A stretch of 64,000 nucleotides of DNA from Alcaligenaceae bacterium (GTDB lineage Bacteria > Pseudomonadota > Gammaproteobacteria > Burkholderiales > Burkholderiaceae_B): positions 1-64,000 of the forward strand of contig CANCOC010000006.1 in the NCBI GenBank assembly GCA_947379755.1, in the 5' to 3' direction. The translations under genes were made by a program, and so were the position numbers. Below the pieces are notes generated by a model. That model worked only from the letters and a program-made list of their open reading frames with translations. It searched no databases and was not told where the DNA came from. The first letter of the stretch is position 1; each line of letters opens with the position of its first letter. This document shows, one piece after another, positions 5,120 to 26,854 of the stretch.

Positions 5120-6142
5120 ATGTCTAATGAAGCACTGCCTCATCAACCCCGTCCAGGATACGTTTGCATGACATTGTTTACTTTGCTATTCAGAATTTTG
5201 GTGTTGCTTTGTGTGACAGGTGTCCCTTTGGCTGCGCAGGCGACTTATCCAGAGCGTGCGGTCACGCTTGTGGTGACATATCCGCCAGGCGGCACGGCTG
5301 ATACGGTTGCGCGCATTCTGGCACCCGAGTTGTCCAGGCAGCTTGGACAGACAGTGATTGTTGAAAATCGTGGCGGAGCAGGGGGAATGATTGGTGGTGC
5401 GTCAGTCGCCAAGGCACAAGCCGATGGATACACCATTATGCTTGACGCGGCCAACCACGCGCAGAATCCAGCTCTCCAGCCCAAAATGCAGTTCGACACA
5501 CTAAAAGACTTTGCCTCAGTTTCATTGGTCCAGCGTGTCCCGAATGTGCTGGTTGTCAGGCCGGATAGCAGCATTCACAGCGTTGCCGATTTGATCAGGC
5601 TTGGTTCGCAAAAAGACGCGACGGTGTATTACGCCACCTCTGGTACAGGAAGTGCCCAGCACCTTGCGGGCGAACTCTTTAACGCTCTGACCGGAACCCA
5701 TCTGGAGTATGTGCATTACAAGGGTGGCAACGCTGGCATCATGGATGTCATGTCGGGTCAGGTTCCAATGATGTTCTCCAGCATGGGGCTCGCCCAGCAG
5801 CACGTCAGGGCAGGCAAGCTACGCATGGTTGCAGTGGGTGGTGAAAAGCGTTCGGTCAATGTGCCTGACGTTCCAACTATTGCACAGTCTGGTGTGCCCG
5901 GTTATGCATCATACGAATGGAACGCAATTTTTGCGCCTGCAGGAACACCTGCGCCAGTGATTGAGCGTCTCAATCAGGCAATCGTAGCGGTTTTGACACA
6001 GCCTGAAATCGCTGCACGGTTCAGTGAATTTGGTGGTGAAGTGATCGGGTCATCGCCAGCCGAGCTTGAGGCGTTCCGGCGCGCTGAAATTGCCAAATGG
6101 CAAAAGCTGGCGAAAGATCACGGTTTGAAACTGGATCAGTAA
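5120..6142 (+). CDS. Bug/TctC family tripartite tricarboxylate transporter solute-binding protein
   Basis: Signal peptide, YPERAVTLVVTYPPGGTADTVARIL, FAPAGTPAPVIERLNQAI; true start may be ATG at 5168. Confidence 0.92.
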   Translation: MSNEALPHQPRPGYVCMTLFTLLFRILVLLCVTGVPLAAQATYPERAVTLVVTYPPGGTADTVARILAPELSRQLGQTVIVENRGGAGGMIGGASVAKAQADGYTIMLDAANHAQNPALQPKMQFDTLKDFASVSLVQRVPNVLVVRPDSSIHSVADLIRLGSQKDATVYYATSGTGSAQHLAGELFNALTGTHLEYVHYKGGNAGIMDVMSGQVPMMFSSMGLAQQHVRAGKLRMVAVGGEKRSVNVPDVPTIAQSGVPGYASYEWNAIFAPAGTPAPVIERLNQAIVAVLTQPEIAARFSEFGGEVIGSSPAELEAFRRAEIAKWQKLAKDHGLKLDQ

Positions 6143-7353: not shown

Positions 7354-8289
7354 ATGAATATTGCAGTTGTGGGTTCGGGTTTGATTGGTCAGGCATGGGC
7401 AATTGTTTTCGCGCGGGGTGGTCACGAGGTCAGGCTGTGGGATGGTGATCCCAAGGCGGTTACCTCGGCACTGACCCTCATAGCGGGGCAGGTGGCTGAC
7501 TTGAAAGCAGCGGGTTTGATCGATCATCCTCAAGCCCTGCTGGAGCGGATTTGTGGTGCCCAGACGCTCGAGGAAGTACTAGATGGCGCCGAGTACGTTC
7601 AGGAAAACCTCCCTGAGCGTGTCGAAATGAAAAAAGAAATCTTTGGCCGCATGGACAAGATTGCTGCGCCTGGCTGTGTGCTGGCCAGTTCAACTTCAAG
7701 TATTCCTGCCTCAGCCTTTACCGAGGACTTGCCAGGACGCGCACGCTGCCTGATCGCCCATCCGGTCAATCCGCCATATCTTGTGCCTGTGGTTGAAATC
7801 TGTGGTGCTCCCTGGACCGATGCTGCAATCGTTCAAAAGACATGGGATGTCATGGAAAGCGTTGGCCAGAAGCCAGTCAAAATTCATCGAGAGCTGCAGG
7901 GTTTTATTCTCAACCGGCTTCAGGGTGCTTTGCTTCGCGAAGCTTTCAAACTTGTCGAACAGGGCTATGTCGATGCCGAAGGGCTCGATGTGACTGTGCG
8001 CGAAGGCCTTGGCTTGCGCTGGTCCTTCATGGGGCCGTTTGAGACAATTGATCTGAATGCCCCGGACGGGCTGGCAGATTATGCACGCCGCTTTGGTGGC
8101 ATGTATCAGTCAATCGCCGAGGAGCAAACCTCTACAGAACCCTGGTCTGAGGCACTGATCGAAAAGCTTGAGGCGTCGCGTCGCAAGATTTTGCCCAAAG
8201 AACAGTTGCTGGCACGGCGGTTGTGGCGTGACCGCAGGCTGATGGGTCTGGCGGCGCACAAATTGGCCGCTGAAAAAAATACAAAGTAA
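7354..8289 (+). CDS. 3-hydroxyacyl-CoA dehydrogenase family protein (lambda-crystallin/carnitine dehydrogenase-like)
   Basis: N-terminal Rossmann VVGSGLIGQAWAIVFARGGHEV; STSSIPAS; AHPVNPPYLVPVVE motif. Confidence 0.88.
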   Translation: MNIAVVGSGLIGQAWAIVFARGGHEVRLWDGDPKAVTSALTLIAGQVADLKAAGLIDHPQALLERICGAQTLEEVLDGAEYVQENLPERVEMKKEIFGRMDKIAAPGCVLASSTSSIPASAFTEDLPGRARCLIAHPVNPPYLVPVVEICGAPWTDAAIVQKTWDVMESVGQKPVKIHRELQGFILNRLQGALLREAFKLVEQGYVDAEGLDVTVREGLGLRWSFMGPFETIDLNAPDGLADYARRFGGMYQSIAEEQTSTEPWSEALIEKLEASRRKILPKEQLLARRLWRDRRLMGLAAHKLAAEKNTK

Positions 8290-8346: not shown

Positions 8347-9279
8347 ATGGCCACATCACGTAAAGTCATTATTACTTGTGCTGCAACAGGCGCAATTCAC
8401 ACACCCAGCATGTCTCCATATCTGCCCGTCACGGCCGATGAAATTGCAAAGTCAGCGATTGACGCCGCAAAAGCGGGCGCCGCGATCCTGCACTTGCATG
8501 CGCGCGATCCTAAAGATGGCAAGCCATCCCAGGACCCTGAGCTGTTTCGCCCTTTTCTGGACAAGATTAAAGCCGCAACCAATGCCGTGATCAACATCAC
8601 GACCGGTGGCAGTCCACATATGACGGTTGAAGAGCGTATGCGTCCGGCAATGACCTTCCAGCCGGAAGTTGCATCCCTGAACATGGGTTCGATGAACTTC
8701 GGTCTGTTCCCAATGCTGGATCGTTTTAAAGAATTCAAGCACGATTGGGAGCGCCAGCACCTTGAAAACAGCCGCGATCTAATTTTTAAAAACACCTATA
8801 ACGATATTGAAACGATTCTGCGTCGCGGTTCGGAAAACGGCACAAAGTTTGAATTTGAGTGCTACGACATCAGCCATCTCTACAATTTGTCGCATTTTGT
8901 CGACCGCGGCCTGGTCAAAGGGCCAATTTTTATTCAATCGGTTTTTGGCATCCTTGGTGGTATTGGGCCACATCCGGAAGATTTGATGCACATGCGCCGG
9001 ACAGCTGATCGTTTGTTCGGTGATCAGTATCAGTGGTCGATCTTGGGCGCTGGCCGCAACCAGATCGCGCTTGCCTCGATTGGTGCTGCGATGGGTTCGC
9101 ATGTGCGGGTGGGCCTGGAGGATTCGCTCTGGATTGGCCCCGGCAAACTCGCTTCATCCAATGCCGAACAGGTCACACGCATCCGGACCGTTCTCGAGGC
9201 GCTTAACCTTGAAGTGGCGACACCAGACGAAGCGCGGCAGATTCTTGGCCTCAAAGGTGCCGCGAACGTCAACTTTTAA
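8347..9279 (+). CDS. BKACE family (DUF849) beta-keto acid cleavage enzyme
   Basis: KVIITCAATGAIHTPSMSPYLPVTADEIA...AAILHLHARDP...GGSPHMTVEERMRP. Confidence 0.93.
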   Translation: MATSRKVIITCAATGAIHTPSMSPYLPVTADEIAKSAIDAAKAGAAILHLHARDPKDGKPSQDPELFRPFLDKIKAATNAVINITTGGSPHMTVEERMRPAMTFQPEVASLNMGSMNFGLFPMLDRFKEFKHDWERQHLENSRDLIFKNTYNDIETILRRGSENGTKFEFECYDISHLYNLSHFVDRGLVKGPIFIQSVFGILGGIGPHPEDLMHMRRTADRLFGDQYQWSILGAGRNQIALASIGAAMGSHVRVGLEDSLWIGPGKLASSNAEQVTRIRTVLEALNLEVATPDEARQILGLKGAANVNF

Positions 9280-9343: not shown

Positions 9344-10312
9344 ATGTTTACGACCGGCCTGAAATCCCGACTTCTATCTCTGACGTTCGCCTCAATGTTT
9401 TTGACTGGTGCTGCGTTCGCGCAAGATAAAACGATGCGGATTGTGGTGCCGTTTGCTGCGGGTGCGGTGCAGGACACGCTGGCACGCAGTATCAATGGAG
9501 AGCTCAGCGCTGCGCTCAAACAAACCGTCATTGTTGAGAACAAAGCGGGCGCGGGGGGCACGATCGGAACGGCGCTGGTTGCAAAGTCTGTACCTGATGG
9601 TTCAATGATGGACCTGGCTGCAGCCAGTCATCTGATTGCAAAATATTTGTATGGCAACCTCGCCTACGATCCGGTCACAAGTTTTGCACCGGCTGCCTAT
9701 ATTGGAAATGCAAGCTATATCCTGATGGTACCGGGTGATTTGCCCGTGACCAGCGTCGCAGATTTCATCCGGCTGGTCAAAGCCTCTCCCGGTAAGTTCA
9801 ACTATGCCTCTGCAGGCAACGGTAGTGCAACGCATCTGTCCATGGCGTACTTTGCAGGAATGGCAGGGCTCGAGATGGAACATATTCCGACAAAATCTAC
9901 CGGCGAAGCTGTGATGGAGGTTCTGTCCGGACGTGCGCAGGCTGTGATTGCCGCCAACGTTGCTGCGCTGGGCTATCAGCAGGATAAGCGCGTGAAGTTA
10001 CTGGCGGTGACCTCGGCGACCCGCTCTAAATTCATTCCAGGCTTGCCAACGGTTGCCGAGTCGGGTTTGCCGGGCTTCGAGTTCACCTCCTGGTTTGGCT
10101 TGTTGGCTCCGAGCGCCACCCCCGTCGCTATCCTGGACAATACCCAGGCAGCAATGGCCGGCTTGCTCAAGGATCCCGTTGTCCTTGAGCGCCTGGCCAA
10201 GCAAGGCATTGAGACTGAGATTCTGACCAATGCCCAGTTTGGAGAAATCCTTAAAAAATCGGATGTCCAGATGGCCGATGTGGTCAAAAAGTCTGGCGCA
10301 AAGGTTCAATAA
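9344..10312 (+). CDS. Bug/TctC family solute-binding protein
   Basis: Signal peptide; MRIVVPFAAGAVQDTLARSI; VENKAGAGGTIGTALVAKS; start chosen at ATG 9344. Confidence 0.92.
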   Translation: MFTTGLKSRLLSLTFASMFLTGAAFAQDKTMRIVVPFAAGAVQDTLARSINGELSAALKQTVIVENKAGAGGTIGTALVAKSVPDGSMMDLAAASHLIAKYLYGNLAYDPVTSFAPAAYIGNASYILMVPGDLPVTSVADFIRLVKASPGKFNYASAGNGSATHLSMAYFAGMAGLEMEHIPTKSTGEAVMEVLSGRAQAVIAANVAALGYQQDKRVKLLAVTSATRSKFIPGLPTVAESGLPGFEFTSWFGLLAPSATPVAILDNTQAAMAGLLKDPVVLERLAKQGIETEILTNAQFGEILKKSDVQMADVVKKSGAKVQ

Positions 10313-11506
10313 ATGAAACTTGTAGACGCGTTCGCCGATTACAGCCGTTTTGTCAGTATCAGGCGTGATATTCATGCGCATCCTGAACTTGGCTTTGATG
10401 AGCACCGGACCTCGGAAATTGTTGCGACCCTGCTGCAGGAATGGGGCATTGAAGTGCATCGCGGGGTAGCCGGCACCGGTGTAGTCGGCGTGCTCAGGGC
10501 GGGAACCAGCACGCGCAGTATCGGGTTGCGTGCGGATATGGATTGCCTGCCTTTACAGGAGCTTAATCAGTTTGCCCACAAATCGACTCAGGATGGGCAG
10601 ATGCATGCCTGTGGCCATGATGGCCATACGACCATGTTATTGGCCGCTGCATGGCACCTGTCAAACACACGGCATTTCGATGGCACGGTCAACTTTGTGT
10701 TTCAGCCCGCCGAAGAAATGGGACGTGCCGGCGCAAAAAAAATGATTGAAGACGGTCTGTTTGAAAGGTTTCCGTGTGATGCAATTTTTGGGCTGCACAA
10801 CTTTTCAATAGGTAACGTTGGAGGCTTTGCGCTCAATGACGGTGCGTTCATGGCCTCAAGCAATACCTTTAAAGTCACCATGAAAGGTCGTGGCACCCAC
10901 GCCTCCATGCCGCATACCGGGGTGGATCCCGTAGCACCCGTGCTTGCTCTGGCGACAGCTTTACAGGGCCTTGTTTCAAAGGTGATCCCTAGCACCGAAC
11001 GTGCACTGCTCGCCGTCACCCAGTTGCAGGGTTCCGTTGCCCCCAACATTATTCCGGATGAGGCAACCCTGGGCGGGACGGTACGTACTTTTTCATTGGC
11101 TGCACTCGACCGGATTGAGGAGCGACTGCGCACGCTTGCGACCCATATTGCCCAGTCCTTTGAATGCGAGGCCGAGATTTTTTTCAGACGCGCCTCCCCA
11201 CCGGTGATGAACCATCCGCGTGAGGCGCATTTTGCTGCCGAAGTGATGCGAGAGGTGGTCGGTGCCGAGCTGGTCAATGACCAGTTCCCCGGTGTGCTGA
11301 CGGCAGAAGACTTCGCCCATATGCTGCTTGCACGGCCTGGTTGCTATGCATTCATCGGCAATGGAGAGGGCAAGCATCGTCTGGAAGGCCATGGTGAAGG
11401 CGCGTGCATCTTGCATAATGCGTCCTACGATTTTAATGATTCCATCATTCCTGTCGGGGCTAGCTACTTTGTACGTTTGAGCGAAAAGTGGCTCAAGCCA
11501 GAGTGA
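10313..11506 (+). CDS. M20 family amidohydrolase/peptidase (hippurate hydrolase-like)
   Basis: IRRDIHAHPELGFDE; HACGHDGHTTMLL; FVFQPAEEMGRAGAKKMIEDG; ATG follows directly after the preceding TAA. Confidence 0.93.
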   Translation: MKLVDAFADYSRFVSIRRDIHAHPELGFDEHRTSEIVATLLQEWGIEVHRGVAGTGVVGVLRAGTSTRSIGLRADMDCLPLQELNQFAHKSTQDGQMHACGHDGHTTMLLAAAWHLSNTRHFDGTVNFVFQPAEEMGRAGAKKMIEDGLFERFPCDAIFGLHNFSIGNVGGFALNDGAFMASSNTFKVTMKGRGTHASMPHTGVDPVAPVLALATALQGLVSKVIPSTERALLAVTQLQGSVAPNIIPDEATLGGTVRTFSLAALDRIEERLRTLATHIAQSFECEAEIFFRRASPPVMNHPREAHFAAEVMREVVGAELVNDQFPGVLTAEDFAHMLLARPGCYAFIGNGEGKHRLEGHGEGACILHNASYDFNDSIIPVGASYFVRLSEKWLKPE

Positions 11507-11705: not shown

Positions 11706-12245
11706 ATGAAACAGTTACTGACAGTGGCCCGGTTAATCGACCGGGTAACTGATTTTTTTGCAGGATTTGCCAAATGGGCGGTACTGATGTGTAGCTTCAT
11801 CAGCGCTGCGAATGCGGTGGTGCGATACACCATTGGCTATAGCTCGAACGCCTGGCTTGAAATCCAGTGGTATTTGTTTGCCGCCTGCGTCATGCTGGGT
11901 GCTGCTCAAGTACTGCGTGTCAACGAGCACGTACGCGTTGATGTGATTTATGGAACATTGAAAAGCCGTAGCCGAGTCTGGATCGATCTTTTTGGACTGA
12001 CCTTCTTTCTGATGCCGGCCATGCTGCTATTTACCTATCTCTCCTGGCCACTGTTTGTCAGCATGCTGATTTCCCAGGAAATGTCCGGCAATTCTGGAGG
12101 TCTGATCCGCTGGCCCGCGATGATGCTATTGCCACTTGGATTTGGTTTGATGGTTGCACAAGGGATTTCAGAGATCATCAAAAGGGTGGGCTGGCTCACA
12201 GGCCAATATGAAATGGATCTCCATTACGAGAGGCCACTGCAATGA
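11706..12245 (+). CDS. dctQ: TRAP transporter small permease (DctQ type)
   Basis: 179 aa, four TM-like segments; LEIQWYLFAACVMLGAAQVLRVNEHVRVDV motif. Confidence 0.9.
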   Translation: MKQLLTVARLIDRVTDFFAGFAKWAVLMCSFISAANAVVRYTIGYSSNAWLEIQWYLFAACVMLGAAQVLRVNEHVRVDVIYGTLKSRSRVWIDLFGLTFFLMPAMLLFTYLSWPLFVSMLISQEMSGNSGGLIRWPAMMLLPLGFGLMVAQGISEIIKRVGWLTGQYEMDLHYERPLQ

Positions 12246-13735
12246 GCATGCAAAATTTTGCCCCCCTGATGTTCCTGGGGCTGATCATCATCATGCTGAT
12301 TGGCTTTCCCGTCGCATTTTCACTTTCTGCCCTGGGGCTGCTGTCCGGGTTCATTGCTATTCAGATGAACTGGTTTCCTGTCAGCTTTATGTACAACCTG
12401 CCACTGAATATTTTCAGTATTCTGTCTAACGACCTGCTGCTGGCAATTCCCTTCTTTACCCTGATGGGAGCTGTGCTTGAGAAGTGCGGCCTGGCGGAGG
12501 ATATGCTTGATTCGATGGGGCAGCTCTTCGGTCCGATCCGTGGTGGCCTGGGTTACTCGGTGATTCTGGTTGGCTTCATTCTTGGTGCGATCACCGGGAC
12601 GGTGGCCGGACAGGTCATTGCCATGTCGATGATTTCCTTGCCTGTCATGATGCGCTACGGCTACAACATGCGTTATGCAACCGGGGTGCTTGCTGCCTCC
12701 GGGACCATTACACAGCTTGTGCCACCTTCGCTGGTGCTGGTTGTCATGGCAGACCAGCTCGGACGTTCCGTCGGGGATATGTATAAAGGAGCCTGGGGGC
12801 CATCGATTCTGCAGGTCTTGATTTTCCTGCTCTATACCTTTGCACTGTCACGCTTTCGCCCTTCCCATTTGCCAGGGCTGCCGCGTGAGGCACGCACGCT
12901 TGATGGCTGGGCACTCTGGAAAAAGTGCCTGCGTGGCATCATTCCCTCGGCCATCCTGATTTTTGCAGTGCTGGGCAGTATGGGTGGCTTGCCAGGAATG
13001 AACACAGCCATCGCTACGCCGACTGAAGCGGGCGCCATGGGTGCCATGGGCGCCATCCTCCTGGCAGCGATTCATGGCAGGCTGAACTGGCCGATTGTGC
13101 GTGATGGCATGACAAACACCATGCGCATTACGGCGATGGTGGTGTTCATTCTGATCGGTTCGCGCACCTTCTCACTGGTATTCCAGGGTGTGGATGGGGC
13201 GCTCTGGATTGAGCATCTGTTGTCAAGCCTGCCCGGTGGACAGATTGGCTTTCTGATCGTCGTCAATATATTTGTATTCTTTTTGGCCTTCTTCCTCGAC
13301 TTTTTTGAGATCGCCTTCATTATCCTGCCGATGCTGGCACCCGTGGCAAACAAGCTTGGCATCGACATGATCTGGTTCGGTGTGTTGCTATGTGTCAATA
13401 TGCAGACAAGCTTTATGCATCCTCCTTTTGGATTCGCATTGTTTTATCTGCGCAGCTCCGCTGACACGTTGTTCAAAACTGGCTCGCTTCCGTCGAAAGT
13501 CCTTTCGCGCGATATCTATCTGGGGTCAATTCCCTGGGTGTTGTTGCAGCTGATTCTGGTCCTCGTGGTGATCTTTTTCCCTCAGACGGTGACTGTATTC
13601 CTGGACAAACCAATTGTTGTGGATGTCAACACGATCAAGATTGAGCTGCCAGAAAGTGATCTGGACCAGACCGATATTCAGGACGATCAGACGATGAACA
13701 ACCTGATGCGCGGCATGACGAAAGAAAGCAAATAG
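12242..13735 (+). CDS. dctM: TRAP transporter large permease (DctM type)
   Basis: 497 aa, polytopic; ILGAITGTVAGQVIAMSMISLPVM, TPTEAGAMGAMGA; 4-bp overlap with dctQ. Confidence 0.93.
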   Translation: MSMQNFAPLMFLGLIIIMLIGFPVAFSLSALGLLSGFIAIQMNWFPVSFMYNLPLNIFSILSNDLLLAIPFFTLMGAVLEKCGLAEDMLDSMGQLFGPIRGGLGYSVILVGFILGAITGTVAGQVIAMSMISLPVMMRYGYNMRYATGVLAASGTITQLVPPSLVLVVMADQLGRSVGDMYKGAWGPSILQVLIFLLYTFALSRFRPSHLPGLPREARTLDGWALWKKCLRGIIPSAILIFAVLGSMGGLPGMNTAIATPTEAGAMGAMGAILLAAIHGRLNWPIVRDGMTNTMRITAMVVFILIGSRTFSLVFQGVDGALWIEHLLSSLPGGQIGFLIVVNIFVFFLAFFLDFFEIAFIILPMLAPVANKLGIDMIWFGVLLCVNMQTSFMHPPFGFALFYLRSSADTLFKTGSLPSKVLSRDIYLGSIPWVLLQLILVLVVIFFPQTVTVFLDKPIVVDVNTIKIELPESDLDQTDIQDDQTMNNLMRGMTKESK

Positions 13736-13737
13736 TC

Positions 13738-14181
13738 ATGACCTCCAAGCAGATACCTGAGGATGCAACACCTCTTGCAGAAGGCCCCGCCTTTCCCTTG
13801 CTGGTCAAGGGCATGGCGAGCCTGATGATGCTTGCCATGATTTACTGGGGTGTCGGTGCTGCGGGTCAGATGGTGTGGGAAGATTTTTCAACGGGTGCCG
13901 CGCTCTTGTATGGTGGCGCACTATTGATTTCTCTCGTCGTCTATGTCTGGATCCTGAAAAGCCGGACCCTGATTAGCAGATCGACCATTGAGCAAACCTG
14001 GATCTGGAACAAACGTGTGAATATCGCGGATATCCGTCAGGCCAAGTTCATTTATGTGCCTTATCTGAGCTGGCTTGTCGCTCCGCGGCTGATCGTACGT
14101 GCAGGTCCGGCAGTGAGTGTGTTTTATACCGCAAGTCCAGAGGTTCAGCGGGCGTTTGCCTGTCTGATGCTGGGAAAATAA
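13738..14181 (+). CDS. Small membrane protein of unknown function, TRAP-linked
   Basis: 147 aa; two hydrophobic segments followed by a hydrophilic domain; starts 3 nt after dctM stop. Confidence 0.7.
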   Translation: MTSKQIPEDATPLAEGPAFPLLVKGMASLMMLAMIYWGVGAAGQMVWEDFSTGAALLYGGALLISLVVYVWILKSRTLISRSTIEQTWIWNKRVNIADIRQAKFIYVPYLSWLVAPRLIVRAGPAVSVFYTASPEVQRAFACLMLGK

Positions 14182-14250
14182 AAAAGCATCGCAGGCATCC
14201 AGCCTAAGCGAGCGAGACAAGTTATTCATCTGTACGATGGGGAGTCGAAC

Positions 14251-15264
14251 ATGACCGCAAATCATATTGCATGCCTGTTGCCACGCGCGCTGACGGGATT
14301 AATCATAAAAATCTCAGGCATTGTGGCATTGAGTTGTCTGGCACTGGCCGCACGGGCAGCCGATTATCCTGATAAGCCAATTTCAATCCTGGTGGGGTTT
14401 CCTCCTGGCACCTCTACAGATTCTGTTGCACGGATTCTGGGTGAGCGACTCAGCAAAGAGCTGGGACAGCCCATCATCATTAAAAATCGACCCGGCGTGG
14501 GGGGCAGTCTAGCGGTCAGTGAGCTGGCCAAAACCAAGCCGGATGGATATACGATCGCGCTGTCAGCCTCTGGTCCACTGGGGATCAATCCCCATCTGCT
14601 CAAGAACCTTAATTATGATGCACTGAGCGATTTTGCCGCGATCGGACAGACATCATGGCTGCCCTTTTTATTGGTCACCAATAAAACGAAAGGTCTGGAT
14701 ACTTTTCCCAAGCTTGTTGAGTATGCCCGTGCAAATCCTGGAACACTGACCTATGCCTCGACTGGCCTGGGTACAACCAGTCATTTGCTCATGGCCATGC
14801 TGCTTGAAAGAACGCATCTAAAAATGGTGCACGTACCCTATACAGGGAGCAGCCAGTCTCAGGGTGATGTGATTGGCGGCAACGTCGATATGACACTCGA
14901 TACGCTGGTGACCACGTTGCCCCATGTCAAGTCCGGTCGACTCAATGGCCTTGCTGTCAGTACGAGTGATCATGCCAATCTGGACAAGTCGATTCCAACC
15001 TTACAGGAACAGGGCGTACCGGACTTCAACATGGGGGCATGGCTTGGCTTTGTTGCCCCAAAAGGTACGCCACCTGATATCGTGAAGCTGTTGCACGACA
15101 AAATCAATCAGGCCCTGAGTGATCCCGAGATCGCACAAAAACTGGAGTCGCTTGGTGCGCAAGTGGTCATGAGCCCAACGCCTGCAGCATTTGAATCCTT
15201 GATCGTGAAGAACTATGACACGTGGGGTAAGCTGATCAAACAAGCAGGACTTGAGCAGCAATAG
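14251..15264 (+). CDS. Bug/TctC family solute-binding protein
   Basis: ADYPDKPISILVGFPPGTSTDSVARIL; NRPGVGGSLAVSELAKTKPDGYT. Confidence 0.93.
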   Translation: MTANHIACLLPRALTGLIIKISGIVALSCLALAARAADYPDKPISILVGFPPGTSTDSVARILGERLSKELGQPIIIKNRPGVGGSLAVSELAKTKPDGYTIALSASGPLGINPHLLKNLNYDALSDFAAIGQTSWLPFLLVTNKTKGLDTFPKLVEYARANPGTLTYASTGLGTTSHLLMAMLLERTHLKMVHVPYTGSSQSQGDVIGGNVDMTLDTLVTTLPHVKSGRLNGLAVSTSDHANLDKSIPTLQEQGVPDFNMGAWLGFVAPKGTPPDIVKLLHDKINQALSDPEIAQKLESLGAQVVMSPTPAAFESLIVKNYDTWGKLIKQAGLEQQ

Positions 15265-25681: not shown

Positions 25682-26689
25682 CTAGTCGACTGTTGCGCCT
25701 GAAGCTTTCACGATATCGCGCCATTTCTGTATATCACCATCCAGTCGCGTTTTGAATTGCTGCGGTGTGTCAAAAGACAATTCAACGCCGAGATCAGTGA
25801 GCTTGTTCTGGACGACAGGCTTTTGCATGACACTGGCAGTCGCCTCATAAATCTTGTTCGTGATGTTTGGTGGCGTGCCAGCAATTGCAAACAGACCAAT
25901 CCAGAGTTCACCGGAAAAACCTGGAATTTTTTCACTGATCGCTGGGACATCCGGCAAGGCAGGCGAGCGCTTTTCAGAACTGACGCCTAGCGCGCGCAAC
26001 TGACCCTGGCGAATGTTATTCAAGGCAGAGGGGAGGCTGGCAAATGCTATCGGGACCTGTCCGCCGAGCACATCGGCCATGGCGGGTGCGACGCCCTTGT
26101 ATGGAATATGTTCCATTTTGACGCCTGCACGCTGATCAAGCATGACACCCAGCAAATGATTCACGGTGCCGTTTCCGGCCGAGGCATATTGATATTTGCC
26201 TGGATTGGCTTTCACAAGAGCCAAAAACTCATCCAGCGTTTTGGCAGGAAACGAAGGGTGAACGACCAGCACGTTGGGCACACTGCCAACCATGGTGATT
26301 GGAATAAAGTCCTTGATCGGATCAAAGCCGACGTTTTTATACAGCGATGGGTTGATTGCCTGTGCACTGTTGACAGTCATCAATAGTGTGTAGCCGTCCG
26401 GTGCAGCTGACTTTGTCTGTGCCGTACCAATGTTGCCGCCCGCGCCCGGTTTATTGACAATGACGACCGATTGCTTGAGTGTCTCTGCCAACTCGGCGGC
26501 GATGAGTCTTCCAACAATATCGTTTGTGCCGCCAGGGGATTGTGGAACGACCATTGTGATGGCATGGTTTGGATAGCTGGCACTGGATTGCGCCGTAGCT
26601 GAGGTTGCTGTGATCGCGGTTAAGGCCGTGGCAAGCGTCACCATCAGGCCCGAGATCCGGCAAAACCGGTATATAGGTGCAATTGTCAT
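25682..26689 (-). CDS. Bug/TctC family solute-binding protein
   Basis: YPNHAITMVVPQSPGGTNDIVGRLIAAELAE; NKPGAGGNIGTAQTKSAAPDGYT; start at internal ATG. Confidence 0.92.
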   Translation of the reverse strand: MTIAPIYRFCRISGLMVTLATALTAITATSATAQSSASYPNHAITMVVPQSPGGTNDIVGRLIAAELAETLKQSVVIVNKPGAGGNIGTAQTKSAAPDGYTLLMTVNSAQAINPSLYKNVGFDPIKDFIPITMVGSVPNVLVVHPSFPAKTLDEFLALVKANPGKYQYASAGNGTVNHLLGVMLDQRAGVKMEHIPYKGVAPAMADVLGGQVPIAFASLPSALNNIRQGQLRALGVSSEKRSPALPDVPAISEKIPGFSGELWIGLFAIAGTPPNITNKIYEATASVMQKPVVQNKLTDLGVELSFDTPQQFKTRLDGDIQKWRDIVKASGATVD

Positions 26690-26854
26690 GGTGAGGCGCC
26701 TGTTTGTAATGGTTGTCATATTGAGTGCTCCCGCCAATCATATACGACAGGTCCCATGGATTGCTTCGTGATGACTTCTTGTGAGTCATTCTCGCAGATA
26801 CAATACGTCCGCAGCGAGGTATGCGGCCGCTCAAGACACGACTTTGGACAAACG

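Follow-up and report, generated by a model that had tools for sequence, protein, structure and literature searches.

The TRAP permease genes dctQ and dctM of the window (the whole 64,000-nucleotide stretch of DNA that was analysed) very probably encode the membrane part of a TRAP transporter of the ordinary, TakPQM-like kind, with the gene for its binding protein at another place in the genome. As receptor, DctQM probably uses P0008 and/or P0007, two DctP proteins. In the periplasm they would capture a small 2-oxo (keto) acid and pass it to DctQM, which would then import it by means of an ion gradient; we infer the physical pairing of receptor and permease, the substrate and the coupling ion. 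The Bug proteins encoded around the permease would be TctC receptors of the unlinked type that share its catabolic cluster and, if they take part in transport at all, they would presumably use the single TctAB of the genome or another permease. The original prediction had offered two alternatives for this locus, an unlinked DctP or a Bug protein working with a TRAP permease, and the analysis favoured the former over the latter.

The genes for DctQ, DctM, the 147-aa protein and the three Bug proteins were all recovered intact (Table 1). As first described, dctQ, dctM and a small membrane gene lie among three Bug genes, which scored 209–220 bits against PF03401, and a fourth Bug gene, absent from the original list, was detected further along the window. 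Both TRAP permease domains, that of DctQ and that of DctM, were present, and the two genes overlapped by 4 bases. The reported lack of DctP, TctA and TctB in the window also held, as whole-genome HMM searches detected none of the three on contig C6, which carries it. The locus has the TctC component of a TctABC system (PF03401) but not its TctA/TctB permease. From the enzymes encoded nearby, the cluster may serve to break down a keto acid or a similar acyl compound. The NCBIfam model passed by the beta-keto acid cleavage enzyme, NF053538, is that of 3,5-dioxohexanoate:acetyl-CoA acetone transferase. On the 3′ side of the cluster are short-chain dehydrogenase, quinone-oxidoreductase-like and FMN-binding-like genes, named by inspection only.

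Table 1. Genes of the permease locus and other Bug genes in the window, with their profile matches.
Feature	Position	Strand	Profile evidence
Third Bug/TctC binding protein	5120..6142	+	PF03401 1.5e-62
3-hydroxyacyl-CoA dehydrogenase family enzyme	7354..8289	+	PF02737/PF00725; NF004783 443 bits (cut-off 347)
Beta-keto acid cleavage enzyme (BKACE)	8347..9279	+	PF05853 4e-111; NF053538 573.8 bits (cut-off 430)
BugU, Bug/TctC binding protein, upstream neighbour	9344..10312	+	PF03401 1e-61
M20-family amidohydrolase, between BugU and dctQ	10313..11506	+	PF01546; TIGR01891 above cut-off
dctQ (179 aa), small subunit of the TRAP permease	11706..12245	+	PF04290 4.5e-19, 69 bits
dctM (497 aa), large subunit of the TRAP permease; TakM-type, judged from the DctPs linked to it in relatives	12242..13735	+	PF06808 6e-83, 279 bits; TIGR00786 280.7 bits (cut-off 268.45)
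147-aa membrane protein	13738..14181	+	no Pfam match
BugD, Bug/TctC binding protein, downstream neighbour	14251..15264	+	PF03401 6.1e-65
Fourth Bug gene	25682..26737	-	

Genome-wide HMM searches of the source draft assembly (3.37 Mb, 94.6% complete) returned 10 DctP, 9 full DctM plus 1 fragment at a contig end, 124 TctC, 1 TctA and 1 TctB. A linked DctP was present at 7 of the 9 full DctM genes, a fused DctM on contig C72 was adjoined by a TAXI-like protein, and the DctQM of the window was the only full DctQM in the genome without a linked receptor. Three DctP genes had no neighbouring permease, namely P0007 on contig C4, P0008 on C2 and a further gene on C5. Thus the numbers of receptors and permeases match, with one receptor-less permease set against permease-less receptors of the TakP type. 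The unlinked tctAB genes envisaged by the original prediction were found as a single pair, both on contig C57, on which the genome-wide search detected no TctC.

P0007 (13.47–14.56 kb of its contig; L150 8467–9564) adjoins pmbA and argC, and P0008 (about 88.5–89.6 kb) lies behind a panE-like gene. In a maximum-likelihood tree, both grouped with the DctM-linked DctPs of relatives in one TakP-type clade (support 100/99), whereas the remaining 8 DctPs of the source genome fell outside it; a receptor of the matching clade is therefore present in the same genome as DctQM. The linked DctPs of relatives were mostly 43–58% identical to P0007 and P0008, and far less so to the 6 other source-genome DctPs that were compared. 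Both proteins matched TakP along their own length (E 1e-128 for P0007 and 1e-123 for P0008). When the ligand and cation residues of TakP (PMC1839085) were read from the alignment, P0007 retained all five side-chain positions checked (Q156, R177, E214, E240 and Tyr100), as did P0008 save for Asp at E240. In many genera across the family P0007 is an orphan beside pmbA, with no adjoining permease, and it may therefore be shared with permeases other than this one. A further type of orphan TakP-like DctP, often near a hydantoinase/oxoprolinase-like gene, was observed at same-genus loci such as L228 and L231, and also in two genomes without window-type DctQM.

Comparison of synteny within the genus placed one of these receptor types at the locus itself. 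Orthologues of DctM, 85–92% identical over their length, occurred in more than 20 same-genus genomes, and in two of them the orthologous locus contained an orthologue of P0008. The gene order was DctQ-DctM-small-DctP-Bug in G173, where the DctP was 78% identical to P0008, and DctQ-DctM-small-panE-DctP-Bug in G213, the panE-DctP pair of which is the pair found on contig C2 of the source genome and on contig C3 of G209. These arrangements indicate that, within the genus, some genomes have the receptor as part of the locus and others have it elsewhere. A receptor gene beside the permease, a usual though not universal trait of TRAP transporters, was thus absent at the window locus but present in G173, G213 and most relatives. 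With two TakP-type orphans in the genome and one type inside sister loci, the earlier suggestion that DctP lies elsewhere is well supported.

The distribution of P0007 followed that of the permease. Of the same-genus genomes with a completeness of 90% or more, all 17 that have window-type DctM also had P0007, and none of the 4 that lack this DctM did (Fisher 1.7e-4, a value that ignores shared ancestry). Five same-genus genomes, the fifth of them 86% complete, lacked both DctM and P0007 although the pmbA neighbourhood was intact, and in none of the five did that site contain a remnant of a DctP gene. Since these genomes form one clade, the co-absence may be a single event; close BugD relatives were missing from this clade too. 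When 41 genera of the family were compared, DctM and P0007 were both present in 30, both absent in 8 and discordant in 3 (p = 4e-6, again ignoring shared ancestry). P0007 was not detected in one DctM-bearing genome, G214, which is 79% complete. Overall, clade placement and the receptor inside sister loci point, to a large degree, to a distant dctP that co-evolves with this DctQM, the very finding that the original prediction had named as contrary to a Bug-fed permease.

Outside the genus, receptor and permease were commonly found together. Scanning named genomes yielded 80 loci, 6 from the same genus and 74 from outside it. Within the locus sequence examined, a DctP was found near the DctM orthologue in 54 of the latter, as a rule in convergent orientation on the downstream side of DctM or the 147-aa gene. 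In several genera, DctQM and DctP together adjoin pmbA. At about 20 of the 74 loci no DctP was found in the examined sequence, several of these being cut by contig ends. DctQM genes without a DctP in that sequence included those of L076, L077, L079, L082, L083, L085 and L088, from which it follows that unlinked permeases of the TakQM-like type are not rare. TakP-type receptors are often unlinked from their permease in the family of the source organism.

The main rival explanation, which we consider very unlikely, is that a neighbouring Bug/TctC protein, most likely BugD, replaced DctP to give a cross-class TRAP transporter. BugD is encoded directly downstream of the permease cluster on the same strand, and this neighbourhood was kept in 9 same-genus genomes, including G026, which is basal in the DctM tree and has Bugs flanking both sides; by that tree, the position of a Bug next to DctQM is old within the genus. 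A precedent has also been proposed in the pairing of a TAXI receptor with GltS (PMC12344293). However, no adjoining Bug was present in one 14-genome clade that retains the permease (13 loci were readable; the contig of G220 ends too soon). A Bug-TRAP hybrid would be expected to keep its Bug wherever the locus lacks DctP, but at these 13 same-genus loci neither a Bug nor a DctP was found beside DctQM. In addition, BugD and DctP occurred together at the locus in two genomes, and P0007 was kept in 9 of 9 BugD-bearing genomes. Thus, in terms of gene content, the permease can be retained without the Bug, and the Bug does not stand in for DctP. Relatives of BugD at 59–62% identity did occur unlinked in the Bug-less clade; as this is lower than the 69% of the basal linked copy, they are probably paralogues. 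Beyond the genus, a Bug adjoined DctQ at only 1 of 74 loci (L126), and a DctP was present there too.

Bug genes also adjoin TRAP permeases in the source genome that have receptors of their own, as at the loci on contigs C1 and C132, each with its own DctP. In total, 3 of 9 TRAP loci abutted a Bug, relative to ~0.7 expected (P 0.03, assuming 3200 genes); this enrichment was set aside as support for coupling because 2 of the 3 loci own a DctP. Since the genome holds 124 genes for TctC but only one TctAB, Bug neighbours are common in it. The pairing of DctP with its QM partner is, moreover, reported to be specific, as SiaP of V. cholerae does not substitute for that of H. influenzae (PMC5812351). 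Hence the Bug genes next to DctQM are most likely neighbours and not evidence for a new kind of transporter, and the new architecture suggested at the outset is not needed; apart from a neighbourhood conserved in part of one genus, nothing found here speaks for it. A mixed arrangement, in which the permease is fed by TakP-type DctPs and BugD also docks on DctQM in the nine genomes, seems to us similarly improbable.

Still less probable is that DctQM operates without any binding protein. The DctP-less loci outside the genus could be read in this way, but those TRAP permeases that have been studied depend on a binding protein (PMC5812351), and TakP-type DctPs are encoded elsewhere in the source genome. 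That DctQM is a non-functional remnant left after receptor loss, as the lack of a linked receptor in the source genome might suggest, is equally hard to credit given intact, overlapping dctQ and dctM genes and the conservation of DctM across more than 20 genomes.

The preferred reading, a TakPQM-like transporter with an unlinked receptor, has its closest known counterpart in TakPQM-type TRAP transporters. The receptor TakP of Rhodobacter sphaeroides (PDB 2HZK/2HZL) takes up keto acids in its binding site together with a cation (PMC1839085); the DctQ and DctM families are shared with TakPQM, and most cation and keto-acid residues are retained in the candidate DctPs. Unlike in TakPQM, receptor and permease genes lie apart here, and there are two candidate receptors. 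Receptors of the TRAP class that have no permease next to them are already on record (PMC12344293), so that a TRAP transporter with an unlinked receptor is a known arrangement. With a single permease and two orphan candidates for its receptor, this genome is a concrete case in which to ask whether TRAP permeases share receptors.

The Bug proteins, for their part, resemble the orphan Bug/TctC proteins of Bordetella and Cupriavidus in that they carry PF03401 and have no TctAB nearby. Bordetella has an excess of orphan Bugs, placed near catabolic operons (PMC5812351, PMC11452294), and the TctC:TctA ratio of 124 to 1 observed here is an excess of the same sort (PMC5812351). Unlike orphan Bugs that lie only beside catabolic genes, the Bugs of this locus adjoin a TRAP permease. 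The TAXI-GltS system of Bordetella pertussis is a published example of what the original prediction imagined, a receptor proposed to serve a permease from a different class. That proposal drew on translational coupling of the genes, on their recurrence in disparate organisms and on gene fusions (PMC12344293); none of these three was found here for Bug and DctQM. In a window from a draft genome, the absence of a neighbour gene is a weak argument for a new class of transporter, and the wider question raised by this genome is that of the partners of its 124 Bug proteins.

The membrane gene that follows dctM was itself conserved, with homologues of the 147-aa protein encoded 3′ of dctM in about 50 relatives. 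The AlphaFold2 model (mean pLDDT 88.8) has two predicted transmembrane helices and a PH-like domain, and its Foldseek matches were PH/PTB folds (best E 2.9e-3). The protein is possibly an accessory part of TakQM-type TRAP transporters.
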